A stretch of 64,000 bases of DNA. It comes from Allacma fusca. Lineage: Eukaryota > Arthropoda > Collembola > Symphypleona > Sminthuridae. The stretch is from positions 32,970,250 through 33,034,249 of the forward strand of contig OX359249.1 of the NCBI GenBank assembly GCA_947179485.1. The letters run 5' to 3'. Positions within the stretch are counted from its first letter, which is position 1. Each line of letters opens with the position of its first letter. The notes beneath the pieces are model-generated. The model searched no databases. It saw only the letters and a list, made by a program, of their open reading frames with translations, and was not told the DNA's origin. Positions 15,674 to 56,686 of the stretch are shown here, in pieces. A program made the translations under genes and the position numbers.

Positions 15674-17289
15674 TTAACGCTTTCGTCGAAGTCCCAATCT
15701 GCTACGGCGTAACCAAGCAGCGCGACGGCTTCCTCCGATGGTCTGAGTGTAACGGTGACCTTTGCCCAAACCACGGGATTTCCTATTGGCTGAGGTCTTT
15801 CCACGAAGTTCACGGTGTTTGTGAACAGCATTACAAATCCAGTTCACCTTAGCATCTCGTCGGATAGCCTATGAATATGCAAGTATAATTTTTATTGGTT
15901 TTTGTTATAATGACTGTTCCAGAACCCACAGATTCTATTCTGTACAGAAATTGAACTTCTCAGCTAGACTTAGGGTAAAAGTGTTCATTCATCCACATCA
16001 GAGTGGTGCATGCCCAATCATCATAGAAATTCATAAATCTGTTCAAACAGTAAAAGAATAGGGACACGAAATTGTTACATAATCTCACCTTGTGGAAGGT
16101 ATCAACAAGAATAACTTCATAGTATTTGAATGACGCGTCTTGGGCGACCCAGTAAGAATTCAATACACGAAGTCCTCCCAACCTCTTTCCCAGACGACCC
16201 TGTAATTTCAGATAATCATTAGTACTACTCCTCCGGCTTGACATTTCAGAAAGCATCGTTAATCTATTGTCTCACTCAGACATCCAAGGAAGAAAAATAA
16301 TCATGGTTTTTCATTGAAGTTTATAAATGCTATCATCATTATGAGAATGTATACTACATCAAATATTATTCAGCACTTGAAACTTACTTCAGCAATAGCT
16401 TGGAGATTTCGCACGGGCTTAAGTTGGTTTACTCCATGGCTCTTAGGTTTACCATAAGTGCAACCTTTAGCGACAGGGCGCTTGCGACCACCACGGCGAA
16501 TTCGTACGCGGAAGATAACAAAACCTAAAACAAAATCAAAAAGCAACTCAATAAATGCACACTAAACACTCACCATATCCCTTAAAATATTCACAGAACG
16601 CTTTCATTGAAGTCAATCGTCGACAGCCTACAACAAAAATCCTCCTTCCCGATTTCCACTACTTCAAAAACCGAACCTCAGAGCTTATTCTGATTTACAA
16701 AGCTCGAACTTCTCAGCTTAGACTTAAGGTAAGTGTTCATTCATCCACATCAGAGTGGTGCATGCCCAATCATCATAGAAGTTCAACAGTAAGTAACAAC
16801 AGAAGCGTGTTCCCTACAATCAAGTCTTATCCCACGAGCTACTATACAAATCAAAAGCCATGTGGCAATTCCATACTGTTCATCAATCTGATCAAATCCA
16901 TAAATCACCCACCCCGGCCTCAATTAACATCTCACCCTTTCCTTTTTGAAATCAGCTACAAAACTCTTGACAACCAATCCTCCAAAAAGTCTCAACTCTA
17001 CCTCCCATGGTTTTTAACTACCGCAAATACCCGAATCCAAGTAACACTGGTAACTCCAAGGCCTCCCTCCCCTAATGACTCCATTCCATTCTAACCTTTC
17101 AAAACAATTCCAATTACCTTGCTTTGCTCTATATCCCAGACGACGGGCTTTGTCAGGTCTGGATGGATGAGGCACCCGGACAACTTTATTCAATTGTCGG
17201 TATTGCCAGCAGCGGATACGAAGCAAAAATCGCATAACATCGCTCTGCTTTTTGCGGTACAACTCTTGCATATACTTGTACGCCCCCAT
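15674..17289 (-). CDS. RpL15: 60S ribosomal protein L15 (eL15)
   Basis: Structural protein of the cytosolic large ribosomal subunit. Four coding exons on the minus strand, 17289-17118, 16524-16388, 16199-16089 and 15868-15674, join to 204 residues, the same length as I recall for the human protein. The N-terminus [20 protein letters not shown] and the motifs [44 protein letters not shown] and IGGSRRAAW are diagnostic. An AG acceptor sits one base before the ATG, and a donor at 17588-17589 closes an untranslated first exon ending at 17590. Three introns carry snoRNA-like sequences (listed separately). On the mature strand, a pyrimidine tract at 17672-17663 (TCTCTCCTCC) near the likely transcription start is consistent with a TCT/TOP-type ribosomal-protein promoter. 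The gene is head to head with mRpL32. Confidence 0.98.
15953..16032 (-). ncRNA. Box C/D snoRNA candidate, copy 1 (RpL15 intron 3)
   Basis: On the minus strand, a terminal stem GAATTTC/GAAGTTC encloses box C (ATGATGA, 16024-16018), an internal D'-like CTGA, a C'-like ATGAATGA and box D (CTGA, 15963-15960). The total is 80 nt. The 14 nt before D' (GGGCATGCACCACT) pair with the universally conserved 18S rRNA segment GGUGGUGCAUGGCC: ten contiguous Watson-Crick pairs, one flanking U-G pair and two more pairs after one mismatch. By the box D+5 rule the target is the G just 5' of UGCAUGG. Box C/D snoRNAs in ribosomal-protein introns are common. A near-identical copy lies in the first coding intron. 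Confidence 0.8.
16270..16346 (-). ncRNA. U14-like box C/D snoRNA (RpL15 intron 2)
   Basis: On the minus strand, a stem TCTCAT/GTGAGA closes box C (ATGATGA, 16339-16333) and box D (CTGA, 16279-16276), spanning about 77 nt. Directly upstream of box D is CTTCCTTGGATGT, exactly complementary over 13 nt to the conserved 18S rRNA sequence ACATCCAAGGAAG. This is the guide and 3' end known from U14 (SNORD14), which directs 2'-O-methylation of the C in ACAUC (Cm462 in human numbering, from memory). The upstream region that should match U14 domain A is only weakly complementary to the 5' part of 18S rRNA. It could therefore be a divergent U14 or a snoRNA sharing only its methylation guide. Confidence 0.78.
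16706..16784 (-). ncRNA. Box C/D snoRNA candidate, copy 2 (first coding intron of RpL15)
   Basis: This is a 79-nt paralogue of the element at 15953-16032. Box C is at 16776-16770 and box D at 16716-16713, and the D' guide against 18S rRNA is identical. The terminal stem GAACTTC/GAAGTTC is perfectly paired. In copy 1 the only change in this stem turns a C-G pair into a U-G pair, so pairing is kept. The region before box D differs by small insertions, so only the D' guide seems conserved. The two copies sit in different introns of one gene, as expected from intragenic snoRNA duplication. Confidence 0.82.
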
Positions 17290-17360
17290 TCTGCAATTCA
17301 AAATAAAATTTGAAAGTTAAAATTATTATTTCCAATCGAATTCACTAAAATTCTAAAAAC

Positions 17361-36458: not shown

Positions 36459-43316
<6,858 letters not shown>

Positions 43317-47799: not shown

Positions 47800-50700
47800 A
47801 TGGGCACAAACTTGAAAGTTCCTATAAATTTACAATTAATAATACTTACAGTTACTATTTTAGTAAGTACTTTTGCATCAAATGGAAGTTCATACGATGG
47901 AGTGTCACCTATTGCGGATCGAACCCTTGAAGATCTCCTCGAGAAATACGCAAACATTGATCAACAAAATTTCTGGCATCCAAATTCATTTAACACTGGA
48001 CTTCAGAGCCGTGAAGGTAAAGAAAAGTGTTAAGACAGTATAGATTTACATCTGTAACATTTGCCAATACTTTTCTGCTCCTTGGCATGCGAATGTCACC
48101 CTGTCACAATGTGTGAAGGCCAAGATTCCCATATTAATGCAATGCAATATGTCACTGTCAATTTTGATTATAGTAAGGTAAGAGAGAAGTAAAACCTATT
48201 TCCTCAGAAAGTAATTGCAAAAGCACGTATTCATTCAGTAGTCGAATCAGATGAAACAGAAGATAAGGAAATATAGCACCAGAGTGGCCATATTTGCATT
48301 TTATTTCTCCCTTATCCGGCTGTTCTGTACTGTGTCAAGTCTGATAAATTACGAATATGACTACAATGAAGTCACTGCACATTTGTGACAGTATTGACTA
48401 CTAATGAATAACATGGCATGATATTGAAATCTAAATTCTATCTATTTGACAGTAATCAAGATTTCAAGTGTAACAAAGCAATCCATACCAGGAGTATACA
48501 AACAATGGAAAACTGCACATCTGGGACCTAGCACAGTATTTGCTGGGTTAATAACAAATGGAATAGTTTTGCTGGATGAATATTTCAATGAAATTGCATT
48601 TATAAGTGAGTACTTTGGTTTTCGTGTCTTGGTATTAATGGAGTTATGATTTCCAATATAGCCCACACAGGAACTTGTTAACTACGTATGTATTTCTGAC
48701 ATGCTCCAAGCTATTGACGAATAATACGAGCTCCATGAGAACTATGATTTTGACTTTGTAGACGCGTCTGAGGAGTTGGTGGCGCTAACTGTGTTTTCAG
48801 TTTGGGATGATTACCGTAGCATGTCTGAATTAGTAATCATCGTTGCAACTGTCAAGGCATCTTTGCACTCATACAGTTTTGCGAATAGTACGGTCACGCA
48901 CCTTGGGTCATGGCCCCTGCACCATCCTGTCAAGTCTCTTGAACTATGCACAGTTGACCTGATGAAGAAAATTATTGTTGTACCTCAAGATCCCCGTGGG
49001 TCAGTTGACATCTACAACTTTAAGGTCGATGGGAACTCTTCCCAGTTGTGGTAATGCCTCCAGTCAATAAAACATGATTGATTAAAACGTGACCTGTATT
49101 TATCGCTGTATTCATGACCCTCTCCAGGTTTTTCCAAAGTCTCAAACTAGACAGAAGAACTTGCCTAGTGGTACATGATGCGGATTCGACATGCTCAATT
49201 GCTTACGCAGCGGAAAAAAGTATTGGATTGATTACATATGACCCCTACGCAAGAATATTTCACGAGCAATCCTTCCAAAATGTGTCTAGTCCTTGCAAGC
49301 AGTTGACTTCATTTAGCTTGGCATACAGCCAGTACTTAGCATACGTTCCAAACGGGTCTAACCATACTGTCCAATTTTTTACTGACACTGGGAAAGGTCA
49401 ACTATACCAAAATTCATTGCCGATTCAAGCTCTGGAAGTCATTCCACTCCCGGGGAGTGACAACCGTGAAGACATTTTGCTAGTAAAAACCCCCGATAAC
49501 TTCACAAAACTGTATTCATACGATGGATACGGGAAATTATTTAAGGAGACATTTTCCTGTACAGAAGGTAGCATGTTTTTTGCTGATTTAAATCCTTATT
49601 AATGACTTTAACTTTGTACGTATCCAGCAGTCATAATGCAGGGGTAATGAGTTAAGAGTACATATTGTATCAATTCATTTCAGCTATTTGTTCACTTGGA
49701 GAGAATCTATCAAATGGAGCAAGCACTTTGGTGAATGGAACCACAACCGTTTTTTTAGCACCAACTCAGAAGAATAAAACTGAGGCAATAGTTTTACTTA
49801 TTCAAAGCATCATCGAAGATTATCCCTCTCCTCTGTTTGAGCGAGCTCGTCAGCAGTACAACGAATTCCAAAGCCTGACAGACCTGTTCAAGAGGTAATT
49901 AGCTAAGAACATTAAACAGGAAGAAATTACCAATATATATGACATGGTTTTAGGAACGTAATTCATAATATACTTGATTCAGATTTCAGCAGACAGTTAT
50001 GGCCACAAGAACAGCTCTTGATGATGCTCTGGATCGCTATGGCTCTAACATCATTACTGGAAATTGGTCTATCAGGGAATTAAGCAGCTATAATGTCATG
50101 ATGAGTGACGATCATACTTCATCAAACAATCCACAACATCAAAAGGAGGTCTTTGAAGCAAATTTTGGCACCATTGAGTTCAATGAGACTCCACTCAGAT
50201 ACGAAGATTTTTTCCTTCCGGACGTGGCGACACAAACTGAATTAGATCGCTTCAATAAACTCGTTTACCAGGCAAAACTGGACGCACATCAAACTATCCC
50301 ACTGGAATCATCAGAAGTTATTGAAGTTACTGAACCTCAACATATTGAGGCAAATGTTCAATCCTCAGTAATTGATTCTCAAAATCTTCATATACGCAGC
50401 ATTAATGATGTGGACAGACCTCAAGAATTTTTCAATGGACTAGCCCAATCTGGATCTCCTTCGGGTATCCACACCAATAGGAGTATTAATTTCCAAGGGA
50501 ATGTCCGGGTGAATAATATTAATACCAACTTCATCAACGGCATCCCTGTACAACTAATGGCTTTCTCCTCAGCTAATAATGAATTCAATACGTCAATTGT
50601 TGTCCAAAATGAAACTTATGCAGATAGCAATGTCACGGCGTATACGGTCTCAGGTCTCCGGATTCCGGAAGACATACTTTTGGCATCTAATCTAAAAGGT

Positions 50701-53700
50701 AACCAAGTGTAATGTCAAATCTGTTCGTATTTCCGAAATAATTTCTTAATTAATGTTATCTTCTAGGAGTAAATTTCACCGGTACATTAACTGCTAAAAT
50801 CGGAGCTTTTATTGAATCTCTCGTTGGAGGAATCAGAATCGATAAAAGATTAGAGGAAGGCATTCTTTTGGTTGATGCTGACCAGACTATTTCTTCGTCA
50901 ATTGAATTCGATACAGTAGTTTTGCGCAACCTTAGTAACATAAAATATTTGAACGGCCGAAAATTGAGCGAAGTTATCGAGTCCATAGTTTTGAGAAACC
51001 ACGAAGGACTAATACGAGGATCGAAGACAATTTTGTACCCAAATGTTACTGCCAACAGCCTTACTATCCGGGATGCATTAAACTTCATTCCTTTTCCAGA
51101 TGGATATGTTTTTAAGGGAGAAACTGACATCATTACATACGGCACAAAGTCTTTTGCGGATATTACAGCAGATAAGGTGATCTTAAATCGTATTTGTTTA
51201 ATTTCCGCTTCAAAAGTGCTGTTTCTAATGTTACATCTCTATTTAAGGTTACTGTTGATGGTTACATTGATGGAATTAAAACGGATCAAATCGTCAGATT
51301 AGACTCTTCAAGCCGTCCAAACAAGCATGCAAATTGGACTTTATACGGGCCTTGCACGTTCGAAGGTGACATTCACGTAACGGGTAGTGTGGGAGGGATA
51401 CCCGTTTCTCAGTGGGAAAGGGAAGATCTGTCGAATTTCACCAGCAATAATTATTTGTACCAGCCGAACCGCCAAATAGTCATTGAAAATCCCGTCATTG
51501 TAGAAGAACTGAACGTAGAGCACAAAGTCAACGGCGAAACATACAATGAAACGTTTGGCGACATTCTGACCTGTGTAAGTACAAAATTCTCATGTAGTGT
51601 CAACAGTTTCTGAGATTTTATTTAATCAAGTGGTAAGGAAGTTAAGATTCTTAAAATTGGTTCATGGTCATTAATTGTTTCTATAGATTCAGAACCAACC
51701 TATGGTTGTAAAAGGATTGACAACGTTCCAAAATGGCGTCAAGCTTGGCGAAACAGAAGTTCGTACAAATGCAGTGAATGGGCAGCATTTACAAAACTTC
51801 CTCAGCCGACATAAAGAACAGAACATCACCAAAAACTTTGTGTTCAATCAACCAGTTGACTTTTCTGAACTGGTAGCATTAGGTCCAATTGATGGAATTT
51901 GGCTGAACGAGGCCTTGAAAGATATCATCTTTCTAAATCATATTAATGAGTCCTCACAGTTGACGTTTGATTCTCTCCGTACTGAGTCGGATGTTACTAT
52001 TTTTGGCCCAATCAACGACTTTAAATATTTCGGCTCCGACGTTGCAGTCACGCGCGGACGAGTTAATCAAACATTTGAGAATGCGTTATTCGTGAACCAT
52101 TTGAAAGCGAAGAATTTATGTGAGCCTTTTGATTTATTTGATTTCAAATAATGATAAATATTAATATCGGATAAAATGAAAATATTCACCTAAACTGCAA
52201 TTTTTGTCATGAACAATTTATTACAGATGCTGACAAATTCTACACAGCTGGAACCATCAACGGGTTGAACATTAACAAATGGTATCAAGATAGAGTCACC
52301 TTGTCACAAGATAGGACTTGGACCCACCCTGTAGAAATTACCGGAGAAGCAATTTTTGAACGAAACATTCATTCAAAAACAATTAATGGAGAATCACTTC
52401 TATTCCTGGAGAAAGGAGTACTCCGAACGAATGGAGAACTTCAAACTTTCTCCAGCCCAGTTGTAATAAATGGACTCGTTCTTGCGAGAGGCCCAGTAAG
52501 AATCCAAGAATTACTCAGTGGATATTCGCTCACAGAAATTATTCGAGATTCCATTCCTACCGACAGCAATTTCCTGGAAAGCATTACTACCGCTTGGAAA
52601 TTAGAGGTAACGAAAGAATACCAAAAACTGAAGTATTGAACTAAATATATGGTTATTACTACTAAATAATCATTTCATTCATAAATCATCTTTTCTTTTT
52701 GAGGCATAAAATGCTGCAAGGAATGGGCGACAATTATTATAATTTCCTACTTTCTTTTTAGAACACCGTCTTCAACAAACTTACCGTCAAGGGTAAAACT
52801 TGCGGGGTTGATTTAGTACAATTAGACTTGGACAGCGTCCGGAAGAACTCTTCTAATGTACACTTTCAGGGTAGCACGACTTTCACTCAAGATGTCCAGG
52901 TTCTAGGGAAATTAAGAACAGATCTAGTGAATACAGGAAACATGAACGACAGCTTTTTTACTTTGAATACGGCTCAAGAGATACAAGGGAATTTTAATTG
53001 GAAGAATGATGTACAAGTGGACGGCATACTGAATGTTGGTGGCACAATCAACAACATATCTCTCGAAGATTTTCAACACTTGTATTCGTTTTACAATGGC
53101 ATCCATCATATTAATTCTAGCGTCGAATTCGATGACACCTTTGAAGCTAAACATTTGGAAATCGAAGGTTTCATACAATCACGAAACTTAGATAGGTTCT
53201 TGTCTTCCATCGTGTGGCTCGACTCTCCAACAAAGCAGAACGTCCATGGAGATCTGAAATTCACGCAGCCTTTTATTTCTGAAAGTAACATTGAGTGTGA
53301 CACTCTAAATGGAATTGATGTTTCCGAGCTAGCCAGACAGCTTGTGCTCAAAAATAGAGGGTTCGTTTTTAATGAACAAGTTTGTTTCACTAAGCCTCTT
53401 CAAACCGGTACTTTGTTTGTGGAATCGGGGAATGTGGAAACAACCACTGGCATAGTCGGTGGCGTAAACATAGAAGACTTGAAAACCAATTCAATTCCAG
53501 TGAATTCAGTAAGCCCTTTGTCAATAGATGAAATGTTCTTTGAAGACGTATCTATCAACGGTGGACTCGAAGGTGTAAGCTACGTAAATGGAATTCCCAT
53601 TCAAGACCTGTTGACAAGAAACACGCCCCAAAATATGACATCGTTGAAAGTTACTCATTTGAGGGTCCTTCAGAAAAACATTGATATCAAAGGTCTCTTT

Positions 53701-56686
53701 GGGGGTGTCAACATTAATGACGTTTACGAAGACACCGTTTTGGTAAGTTGCTTATACGGCTTTGATTTCTCAACAAATTTGGTAAAAATAAGTGTAATTC
53801 GAGCATGTATTCATGTGTGGAGTTGCAATCATCTTTCAGGATTTTTTCGTGACAATGACAGTTGAATGCTGATGATGTAAGCAATTTGCGTGCTCACATT
53901 TCTTTTAGTAATATTTTTTTGTCCTGGAAGGTAACAAACCAAGCCGGCTTTATTAGTGGCGCTAAATCTTTCACTGGGACCGTGAACATTCTTGGCAACC
54001 TGAAAACAGATGGAAAGATAACTAGCTCATTAGTTATGATGAACGGCACGAATGTCATAAAATCTCCAACAGTATTTGAGGATGATGTTATAGTTACGGG
54101 CAATATGATTCTATTGGGGAAATGGAACAACTACACTTTGAGTGATATGCAACAGCATGGCGTGTCAAAATATGGCGATGAAGTAATTAAAACTAGGTGG
54201 AATTTCCCAAGAGGACTGATACTCAAAAATGAAACCGCTTCGTATGGTCTCATTGATGGGATAAACATGACAAGCGTAGAGCAGGAAAGTCGTAAGAAAG
54301 TTTATGATATGGAGCATTCCTTGAGTAGTGAATACACGGAATTTAATCAAGTTTGCCATACTTATCAACGGTTGTATAACCAAACTGAACGCAGCCCTTT
54401 GAAACTTCAATCATTTGATGAACAGCAAGTAATATTCACTAAACAGAAGGTTCGCTAGAAAAATTCAAGGAGCTTATGATATGTCATACAAATTATTATT
54501 TATTCTATCACTCTGCGGCTATTTGGTGTACAGGGAGGTACAATACTTTTTTCTCTCTCCCCTAGCCCATAGGAGGGACAGTCGTAAAAATATTCAATTC
54601 CCACCCCCCCCCCTCATTTTGTAGGAAATTTTCTTCCAGAAGTAAGAAATATTGTTTACTCCTAGCCCAAAAAATTCCCAGTTTATCAAAGAAGCAAGAC
54701 CTGAAGCCCTTGCGTTGAATGCTTTTTAGGTGTAGTAGACAAACGTTTGAAGGTAGGTGTAGACACTGAATCAACTTCAGAAAGCAACAAATAAAAAACT
54801 AAAGAAATAGATTTTAATCGTGTCAAGTATTCAACGTTTGTTTACATGTCCAATTTCGACCTCATTTCTTCAATAGTTGTTACCTTTTGAAATATTTGGT
54901 CAACTTTTGACCTCATTTCTTCAATGTTTGTTTACATATTGGCCTCAATGGGGTCAACTGGAAACCAGCTTTAAAAAAAATGACGTCAAAAGTCAATGGC
55001 CTCAAAATATGATCAAATATTTTAAAAGGAAGTATTCAAGAACTGACACGCCTGAATTTTTTTTCCTTAGTTTTTTATTTTTCTATTTATGAAGCTGTTT
55101 CAGCGGCTACACCTACCATAAAACTTTTGTCTACTGCGCCTAAAGCAATCATCACAGGGGCTTGAGGTACTGATTGTTTGAAAGCCCTTTAAATTGGCTA
55201 CACATAAACAGAAAATTGCGTTTTTTAAATTTGAAATCTAGGTAAAGATTCGAGAATTTTCAAAAATTTTCCTTGTTTCAAAAAATATTCTAACTTTGCT
55301 CCACTACCTTGACCGATATATTGAGTTTTTTCTAGAACTGGAAGAAAAAATGCTAACAAATGGGGGACTGTAATAATTATTTTTTCCAACTGTCCCTTCT
55401 ATGGGTTAGGGGAGAGAGGAAAAGTTATTACTGCATCCTGTAGGAGACTTGTTACAAATAAAGTGCACGTTTCATGTAATTTCTGACGGTTGTTGTTGCA
55501 GGTAACTAACATGCTGACAGTGGAAGTGGGAGCAAGTTTATTTCTTTTAGTGACCTCGGATACCTGTAGAGTTTATGTTTACAAATGGTCTACTCAGAAG
55601 GAAGAATTTCATGAGTTTGGCCTTGCATTGGTCGGTGAATCCATAGACAAATGGGTACGATCTTCATCAAACAAAACCGTCATCATTGTTTTCTCTACCG
55701 CATCTTCGAAGTGCGGAGAAGACGCCGAAGTCGGATTGTATTTCACTATACCAAATGCCGGAGGAAATTTCACTGCAAAGAAATTAATTAGTTCAGGATC
55801 AGTTGTGGACTTCAAGCTCGTCAGTGACAAAATGCAAGGGATCCTTCTATTCGTAGTTTACAGTGAAACTCCTGAAGCTGTTGTTGTCTACTCTTGGAAT
55901 AATAGCAATTACAATTTTGTTCTGGAATCGTCCCTAAACATCTCAACTTTTATTAGAACTTTGGATGTAACCAAGCTTCGGAATGGAGACGTTGAAATCC
56001 TTCTTCAGACAGTGTTTCGGGTTTCTATTGCTGTTTACTCTTCGAGTCAGAAAAGCTTGAAGGAGATTGGTCATGCTGACTTTTATGGGTCTTCCAAATC
56101 AATGGCATTATTTCGAGCGGATACATCTCTCTACGCCTTGGTCTCTACTAGAGAGACGAGCAAAAAAGCTATTAAACCGGATTGTAATTTACAGGTAATT
56201 AAGACACGAGTCCCTTTAATGGCCTGTGTGCCATAAGGAATGCACGCTGACTTTTAAGAACTTGTTACAGTTCAAAATATGCCAAGTACTAATTTGTCAT
56301 TACTCTCTTGTTTCAAGTTATTCCTGGCCACTCGGGGGGAGTTACAATTTCTACAGAAATTAACGATCTATGATTTAGTTTCAATGGAAGTCGTTCGCGT
56401 GGGCAACCAAGTTTACGTATTAGTCCTCACCAAGCCTGTAGGACTGTACATTTATAAATTTATGGGGTTAAGTGGACTCCAAACCGTGAGCGTTCACCCA
56501 CTCAAATTCCATCACGGGGAACATCTAACTTCTTTTCAAGTCACTCCTTGGCATTATGACACACCACTTCCATTTGTTCTTATTTCTAACGGTAAGATGA
56601 TAAAATTATTCCATAGTAACATTATTGGAAATGCTGTCATTAAATCAGAGAAGAATTCAACACATATATGTCAAACTAGTCATTGA
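47800..56686 (+). CDS. Giant secreted beta-repeat protein, about 2045 residues (14 exons)
   Basis: Exons: 47800-48016, 48453-48605, 48762-49050, 49128-49567, 49684-49894, 49983-50698, 50767-51176, 51248-51574, 51687-52119, 52227-52606, 52762-53742, 53931-54449 (or donor after 54428), 55502-56194, 56318-56686. A signal peptide lies at about residues 8-30. Residues 73-440 have propeller-like hydrophobic strands. Residues about 600-1690 are a degenerate beta-rich array in which VNGI/INGL-type turns plus a following L recur, interleaved with segments like F-x-G-x-V-x-V-x-G. Residues 1693-2045 have EAR/propeller-like units such as VGLYIYKF. Sequons are numerous, and there is no membrane helix beyond the signal peptide. 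Size and layout weakly suggest the insect eggshell/Torso-pathway proteins Nasrat, Polehole and Closca. I could not test this and assign no name. Confidence 0.85.
54531..55440. mobile_element. 910-bp foldback MITE (Tc1/mariner-like TA target) in an intron
   Basis: The left end CAGGGAGGTACAATAC... and the reverse complement of the right end CAGGATGCAGTAATAAC... match for about 70 bp, including an almost identical CTCTCTCCCCTAxCCCATAG block. The pairing continues inwards: the segment near 54715-54765, with GGTGTAGTAGACAAACG, pairs with 55095-55140, and AATAAAAAACTAAAGAAA pairs with the segment near 55062-55080. TA flanks both ends (54529-54530 and 55441-55442), as expected for a Tc1/mariner-type target-site duplication. 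There is no transposase frame. The element fills most of the 1052-bp intron 12 of the giant secreted-protein gene. Confidence 0.82.

Follow-up and report, generated by a model that had tools for sequence, protein, structure and literature searches.

Three large sister proteins with a shared repeat array in the collembolan Allacma fusca as a probable Nasrat/Polehole/Closca set

What is the giant repeat protein encoded at positions 47800 to 56686 of a 64,000-nucleotide stretch (the window, hereafter) of contig OX359249.1 in the collembolan Allacma fusca, and what would so long an array of repeats be for? We refer to this protein and its gene as A, and to two sister genes identified in the same genome as B and C. 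Judged from sequence, the three are probably anciently duplicated sisters that make up this arthropod's Nasrat/Polehole/Closca set and would form an oocyte-made scaffold of the vitelline membrane. Such a set bears on how the three germ-line eggshell proteins come together and keep Torso-like and Nudel in place for later use by the embryo.

Gene A was identified as one forward-strand gene that opens with an ATG at 47800 and closes with the stop codon at 56684-56686, with a single open frame over 14 exons, consistent phases, and GT-AG borders. The final model has 14 predicted exons encoding 2,025 residues without an internal stop, and its features, in positions of the window, are as follows.

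47800..56686, forward strand: whole coding gene A, 14 predicted exons, from hand splicing and a gene finder
47800-48016, 48453-48605, 48762-49050, 49128-49567, 49684-49894, forward strand: exons 1-5, predicted borders
49983-50698, 50767-51176, 51248-51574, 51687(or 51693)-52119, 52227-52606, forward strand: exons 6-10, predicted borders
52762-53742, 53931(or 53862)-54428, 55502-56194, 56357-56686, forward strand: exons 11-14, predicted borders
47800..48016, forward strand: exon 1, a hydrophobic N-terminus followed by SSYDG, read by eye
48453..49832, forward strand: N-terminal end domain, exons 2-5, possibly an EAR/EPTP-type propeller, with a weak likeness to the N-terminal end of C
49833..50004, forward strand: coiled-coil-like heptads LFERARQQYNEFQSLTDLFKRFQQTVMA, ahead of the array and interrupted by intron 5, from the heptad score
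50476..54299, forward strand: repeat array of about 25 units of about 42 residues (residues about 602-1642), from held-out units, shuffles, unit parse, and spacing spectra
52762..53742, forward strand: exon 11, 327 residues, a single open frame with some 7-8 units in a row and the longest unbroken piece of the array
54291..54374, forward strand: heptads RKKVYDMEHSLSSEYTEFNQVCHTYQRL, where the array ends, from the heptad score
55502..56686, forward strand: C-terminal end domain, EPTP/EAR-like, exons 13-14, with an EPTP match under the cut-off and similarity to the C-terminal ends of B and C

Because the gene finder was purpose-written and trained on our first hand-spliced model, its agreement does not count as independent evidence. 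The finder reproduced 10 of the 14 final exons exactly, chose other starts for exons 9, 12, and 13, placed two tiny exons inside intron 12, stopped exon 14 at 56591, and added one more exon that reaches 57386. Its junctions were adopted between exons 2 and 3 (end 48605, start 48762) and between exons 13 and 14 (end 56194, start 56357), and our hand choices were kept for the starts of exons 9, 12, and 13, for intron 12, and for the 3' end. An earlier model of 2,069 residues, differing at junctions 2/3 and 13/14, underlies the Pfam scan of A, the phmmer search against solved chains, the seed-profile scan, the held-out unit test, and one genome search with A as query. The N-terminus of A reads as a putative signal peptide, and the protein is probably secreted; SSYDG in exon 1 has its counterpart in SSYNG near the start of C. 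The predicted protein has 41 N-glycosylation sequons and 16 cysteines.

The array of more than 1,000 residues claimed by the preliminary description, made from the letters and open reading frames of the window, held up on closer analysis. Its units follow the pattern Q-x-I-x-G-x-x-x-F ... I-N-G-I-x-h-x-D-h, and a profile built from seed units with the INGI motif, which contained the units scored, matched over the middle of A at a step of about 42 residues. In the held-out test, 16 of 25 candidate units scored above all 200 of their own shuffles and 3 were beaten by one shuffle, with the remaining 6 beaten by 2, 4, 5, 8, 15, and 133 of 200. Outside the array, 40 of 41 scanned windows gave a score, the best being 7.1 bits, and 16 of the 25 held-out units scored higher. 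Spacings of INGI-like motifs in the arrays of A, B, and C peaked at 40-50 and 80-90 residues. The unit counts (25 in A, 26 in B, and 26 in C) include gaps filled by spacing and leave out two further matches in A and one in C beyond the array limits; an iterated profile, built on the same proteins, supported 23 of 25, 24 of 26, and 19 of 26 units, respectively, with two of the C matches negative-scoring.

We searched for known relatives of the repeat in several collections. CBM_20, the sole Pfam match of 28 pooled units (one member, E 0.006), was rejected as the repeat family, as were Bactofilin and BppL_N, with Pfam scores under their cut-offs. In PHROGs, the pooled units matched 13 families with one member each (best E 0.013) and no known repeat family, and the first 921 residues had no match in NCBIfam. 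No solved relative of whole A was found by phmmer to E 10. Searches by tblastn with one stretch of B and one exon of the window identified no phage or viral relative: the 118-residue B stretch returned 33 phage records with a best E of 4, among which the 15 listed were hypothetical genes or of capsid protease type, and of 7 pattern matches of exon 11 to viral sequences, none was confirmed.

Is A alone in its genome? A profile search for EPTP (PF03736, Pfam cut-off 21 bits) over 392.7 Mb in 91 contigs, with E up to 10, returned 32 matches, of which two were over the cut-off (25.5 and 22.3 bits), both in loci with the same INGI repeat. The two sisters were modeled from 23 and 25 kb of DNA. Sister B, on contig C10, has 20 exons encoding 2,105 residues in an unrefined finder prediction, and sister C, near 3.8 Mb on the minus strand of contig C5, has 24 exons encoding 2,137 residues in a prediction likewise unrefined. 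All three have the same order of parts, with a hydrophobic start, an end domain, a heptad segment, about 25-26 units, and a second end domain. By BLASTP, A and B matched at 6e-11 and B and C at 2e-7, with pieces of about 20-24% identity between sisters, and phmmer gave E 3e-7 or better in 4 of 6 directed comparisons, namely A with B and B with C in both directions. From A to C, phmmer gave E 0.029, ahead of the listed shuffled copies, and from C to A, A was absent among the matches listed. When the genome was searched with B residues 25-1690, the matches were B itself, A (8e-4), C (no better than 0.10), and a fragment of 53 residues on contig C1; none of the 10 scored candidates was a fourth full gene. 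As queries, the array of A (E up to 0.001) and its C-terminal end (E up to 10) returned A only. The three related paralogues identified agree in number with Nasrat/Polehole/Closca.

The fragment on C1 (G000:C1:56203617-56203775; L042 1501-1659) is a 53-residue stretch 64% identical to B and looks like a partial dead copy. Among the 32 EPTP matches, 16 scored an equal 16.8 bits in open frames of 494-1,354 residues on contigs C1, C5, C8, C10, and C12, which probably reflects a repeated mobile element with a chance likeness. Furin-like sites were identified near the N-termini of B (RKKR at 76) and C (RQKR at 93 and RRRR at 109; loci L019-L024), and none was identified in A by the same pattern.

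The shared order of parts also bears on whether the exons of A belong together. That two neighboring genes were wrongly joined, or that the gene model is seriously wrong, is suggested by an intron 12 of more than 1 kb with a palindromic element inside and by the different handling of intron 12 and the 3' end by the gene finder; but in the B and C loci, too, the array lies between two end domains, and the frame of A is in phase across intron 12, and we regard a misjoined chain as very improbable. The single gene first proposed was challenged in this way and retained. The element in intron 12 (54529-55442) resembles a miniature inverted-repeat transposable element and has nested inverted repeats with arms at 54529-54590/55381-55442 (79%) and 54725-54834/55035-55144 (77%).

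We compared the six end domains of A, B, and C in all 15 pairs with 200 shuffles each. The C-terminal ends resembled one another (z 3.3 for A-B, 3.5 for A-C, and 4.9 for B-C), as did the N-terminal ends of B and C (z 5.5), with A-C at z 2.5 (6 of 200 shuffles at or above). The two ends of B scored z 3.8 against each other, and eight other pairs ranged from -0.1 to 2.1. On these scores, the C-terminal ends are kin in all three sisters and the N-terminal ends in B and C, with that of A uncertain. The N-terminal end of C exceeded the EPTP cut-off with 33.1 bits at E 5.7e-8, its best stretch being 302-345, and the C-terminal end of B, at 16.4 bits, did not reach it. The N-terminal end of A is possibly of EAR nature through its weak likeness to that of C. 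Seven EPTP/EAR repeats form a closed propeller, and it is the propellers of LGI proteins and TSPEAR that the ends may resemble, although we know of no array of about 1,000 residues of INGI units between two EAR ends in either.

Which family would carry such a plan? In Drosophila, Nasrat (fs(1)N), Polehole (fs(1)M3/fs(1)ph), and Closca are secreted by the oocyte, and each needs the others to enter the eggshell (PMC6303783); a further source treats the three as a heterotrimeric complex with Nudel as an interaction partner (PMC10576393), and Nasrat and Polehole are termed related genes (PMC3639227). For Nasonia, single orthologues of fs(1)N, fs(1)M3, and clos are reported, whose RNA occurs in the oocyte and nurse cells (PMC6777369). 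Polehole is 22% identical between mosquito and fly (PMC10576393), a fast divergence that A, B, and C share (pieces of about 20-24% identity), and the three sisters likewise form a set of three. The passages covered do not describe an EAR-array-EAR plan or a repeat in these proteins. For A, B, and C, the proposed naming draws on copy number, size, and plan. Of the two guesses offered by the preliminary description, an undescribed extracellular scaffold now gives way to what is probably a described family, and a divergent Nasrat/Polehole/Closca-type protein gains indirect support from three large diverged sisters of one plan beside one Nasonia orthologue each.

EAR repeats are also found elsewhere, and A could belong to an EAR-repeat extracellular family unrelated to the eggshell, such as a cuticle, gut-lining, or nervous-system matrix, with three genes by coincidence. 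EPTP/EAR domains occur in the secreted non-eggshell proteins LGI1 and LGI2 (PMC2949613). However, three large fast-diverging sisters fit Nasrat/Polehole/Closca, and a shrimp table places an EAR repeat-containing protein and a Polehole-like protein in one row block labeled OB (PMC4659196), a label that suggests ovary-biased transcripts. We consider an unrelated EAR family rather unlikely.

Several observations weigh against Nasrat/Polehole/Closca. The C-terminal end of A reached 16.4 bits for EPTP in the earlier model, below 21, and its N-terminal end was without any Pfam match and unlike that of B (z -0.1), so that the propeller- or EAR-like flanks first described are borne out in part at the C-terminal end and by a weak likeness to C at the N-terminal end. 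The likeness of A and C is weak when taken alone (BLASTP 0.014). A given unit is not most similar to the unit of the same number in another sister, and unit-to-unit scores at offsets of -15 to 15 gave no convincing common register (best z 1.8). After knock-downs in Nasonia, the eggshell was still impermeable to dye (PMC6777369), and the eggshell role may therefore fail in some orders; in a butterfly, fs(1)N is reported without transcription in females (PMC3654919).

How might the arrays have grown? Exons beginning and ending in phase 0 had been read as duplicated modules, which the three genes do not bear out. Internal 0-0 exons numbered 4 of 12 in A, where the phases of its introns predict 2.6; the counts were 2 of 18 in B (3.2 expected) and 0 of 22 in C (1.5), giving no clear excess. 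Altogether 22 introns fall within the arrays, and their positions relative to the unit showed no preference (Rayleigh R 0.13, p 0.69). The arrays are therefore not visibly built by exon shuffling, and a single 2,175-base exon holds much of the C array.

What fold would the arrays adopt? In the pooled arrays, hydrophobic residues avoided spacings (lags) of 1 to 4 residues (z -5.5, -6.6, -3.8, and -4.7) and of 7 (z -6.7), and favored lags of 5 (z +5.8) and 6 (z +2.8). The lag 5 excess was found in every array (A 2.2, B 3.4, and C 4.8), and the lag 6 excess in A only (3.1, with 0.6 in B and 0.8 in C). The end domains were without the lag 1-3 deficit or the lag 5-6 excess, but shared with the arrays the lag 4 deficit (-4.3 and -5.2) and, in the C-terminal ends, the lag 7 deficit (-3.2). 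Glycine had no clear six-residue excess in the arrays (lag 6 z 1.4), and a strict hexad pattern, counted 10 times in A, 16 in B, and 12 in C, was inside the shuffle range (means 7.9, 8.5, and 8.1; standard deviation 2.8-2.9).

Pentapeptide and hexapeptide solenoids have spacings of 5 and 6, which lag 5 in all three arrays and lag 6 in A fit. The same family could thus have as its array a single-chain beta-solenoid with 5-6-residue faces in place of a multi-chain fiber, a reading that is compatible with the eggshell assignment and to which a weak Bactofilin match in the earlier model (15 of 27.9 bits, residues 1243-1301) also points. It is possible, at somewhat less than an even chance, and is opposed by two results, the first being the heptad segments before the array, present in A and C and less clearly in B. 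These stretches were picked by eye and compared with random segments of the three proteins, which matched the pre-array score in 2.2% of cases for A and 0.4% for C, and the post-array score in 1.0% for A and 4.2% for C. The segments are less clear in B, which weighs against the main reading, with the pre-array score matched by 7.0% of random segments and the post-array score by 21%.

The second result comes from a pooled repeat profile of 28 units of A, B, and C, searched against solved chains. All nine chains matched were phage baseplate or receptor-binding proteins (for 5e7t/5e7f, we presume this identity), and the best, a weak match, was to residues 36-69 of the receptor-binding protein BPP of phage TP901-1 (PDB 4hem, 3u6x, and 2f0c; E 0.0046 for the sequence and 0.026 for the stretch). 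These residues lie over the BPP neck (40-63), described as an interlaced trimeric beta-prism that comes after a helix bundle and has a six-residue motif (PMC3893620). BPP differs in having one short neck against about 25 units in A, and of the three arrays only that of A has a clear six-residue spacing. The match also depended on pooling, with phage BPP-type chains at E 0.26-0.46 when A or B and C units were searched separately: with A units, BPP reached E 0.26 at best and an unrelated dockerin ranked above it (E 0.0032), and with B and C units, BPP (E 0.37) stood behind a serine protease entry (E 0.11). Reversed units, as a control, had a best E of 0.27 to other proteins and matched acyltransferases, which we take to be left-handed solenoids, at E 0.28. 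The likeness of the array to the BPP neck is a weak one of pattern and does not imply kinship.

Spacing, heptads, and the pooled profile match point to a fiber, none of them decisively. The array lengths (A 1,041, B 1,096, and C 1,095 residues between hand-drawn limits) fit a three-chain fiber and equally fit plain common descent. For the shaft, we regard a single-chain solenoid and a trimer to which each sister contributes one interlaced chain as about equally likely. Within Nasrat/Polehole/Closca, the heptad segments would bring chains together, the arrays would form a long stiff beta shaft, and the propeller-like ends would dock other eggshell proteins at both tips; the chains would so depend on one another for eggshell entry and could hold partners such as Nudel and Torso-like there.

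A more specific proposal, doubtful as it stands and drawn by analogy, is that Nasrat, Polehole, and Closca would be one heterotrimeric fiber, in which three arrays of about 1,000 residues are interlaced like the phage neck, with coiled coils at each end and EAR propellers as tips. If true, this would explain both the mutual need for eggshell entry and the near-equal array lengths at about 20% identity, and the insect vitelline membrane would be organized by a fiber built on a virus-fiber principle. What is new here is the hydrophobic spacing signature and the pooled-profile match to the BPP neck; the plan of a repeat array with propellers and the fiber hypothesis, the part that merits pursuit, make eggshell assembly testable. 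INGI repeats between EAR-like ends further offer a recognizable pattern by which fast-evolving genes may be found where plain BLAST may fail, with the pea aphid, from which Nasrat and Polehole are reported to be apparently absent (PMC3639227), as an example case.

We also identified three other genes in the window.

17014-17316: ribosomal protein L15 gene
20725-21258: deaminase gene, presumably like ADAT2
36617-43316: EGF-repeat receptor gene, which we take to be like Draper/MEGF10, with an open frame (37004-37324) matching Pfam EGF_PEAR1L

Elsewhere in the genome, MACPF, the domain of Torso-like (PMC6303783), had four matches over the cut-off (L045-L048), a close pair on contig C12 and another two on C1, and the genome may therefore hold more than one Torso-like-type gene.

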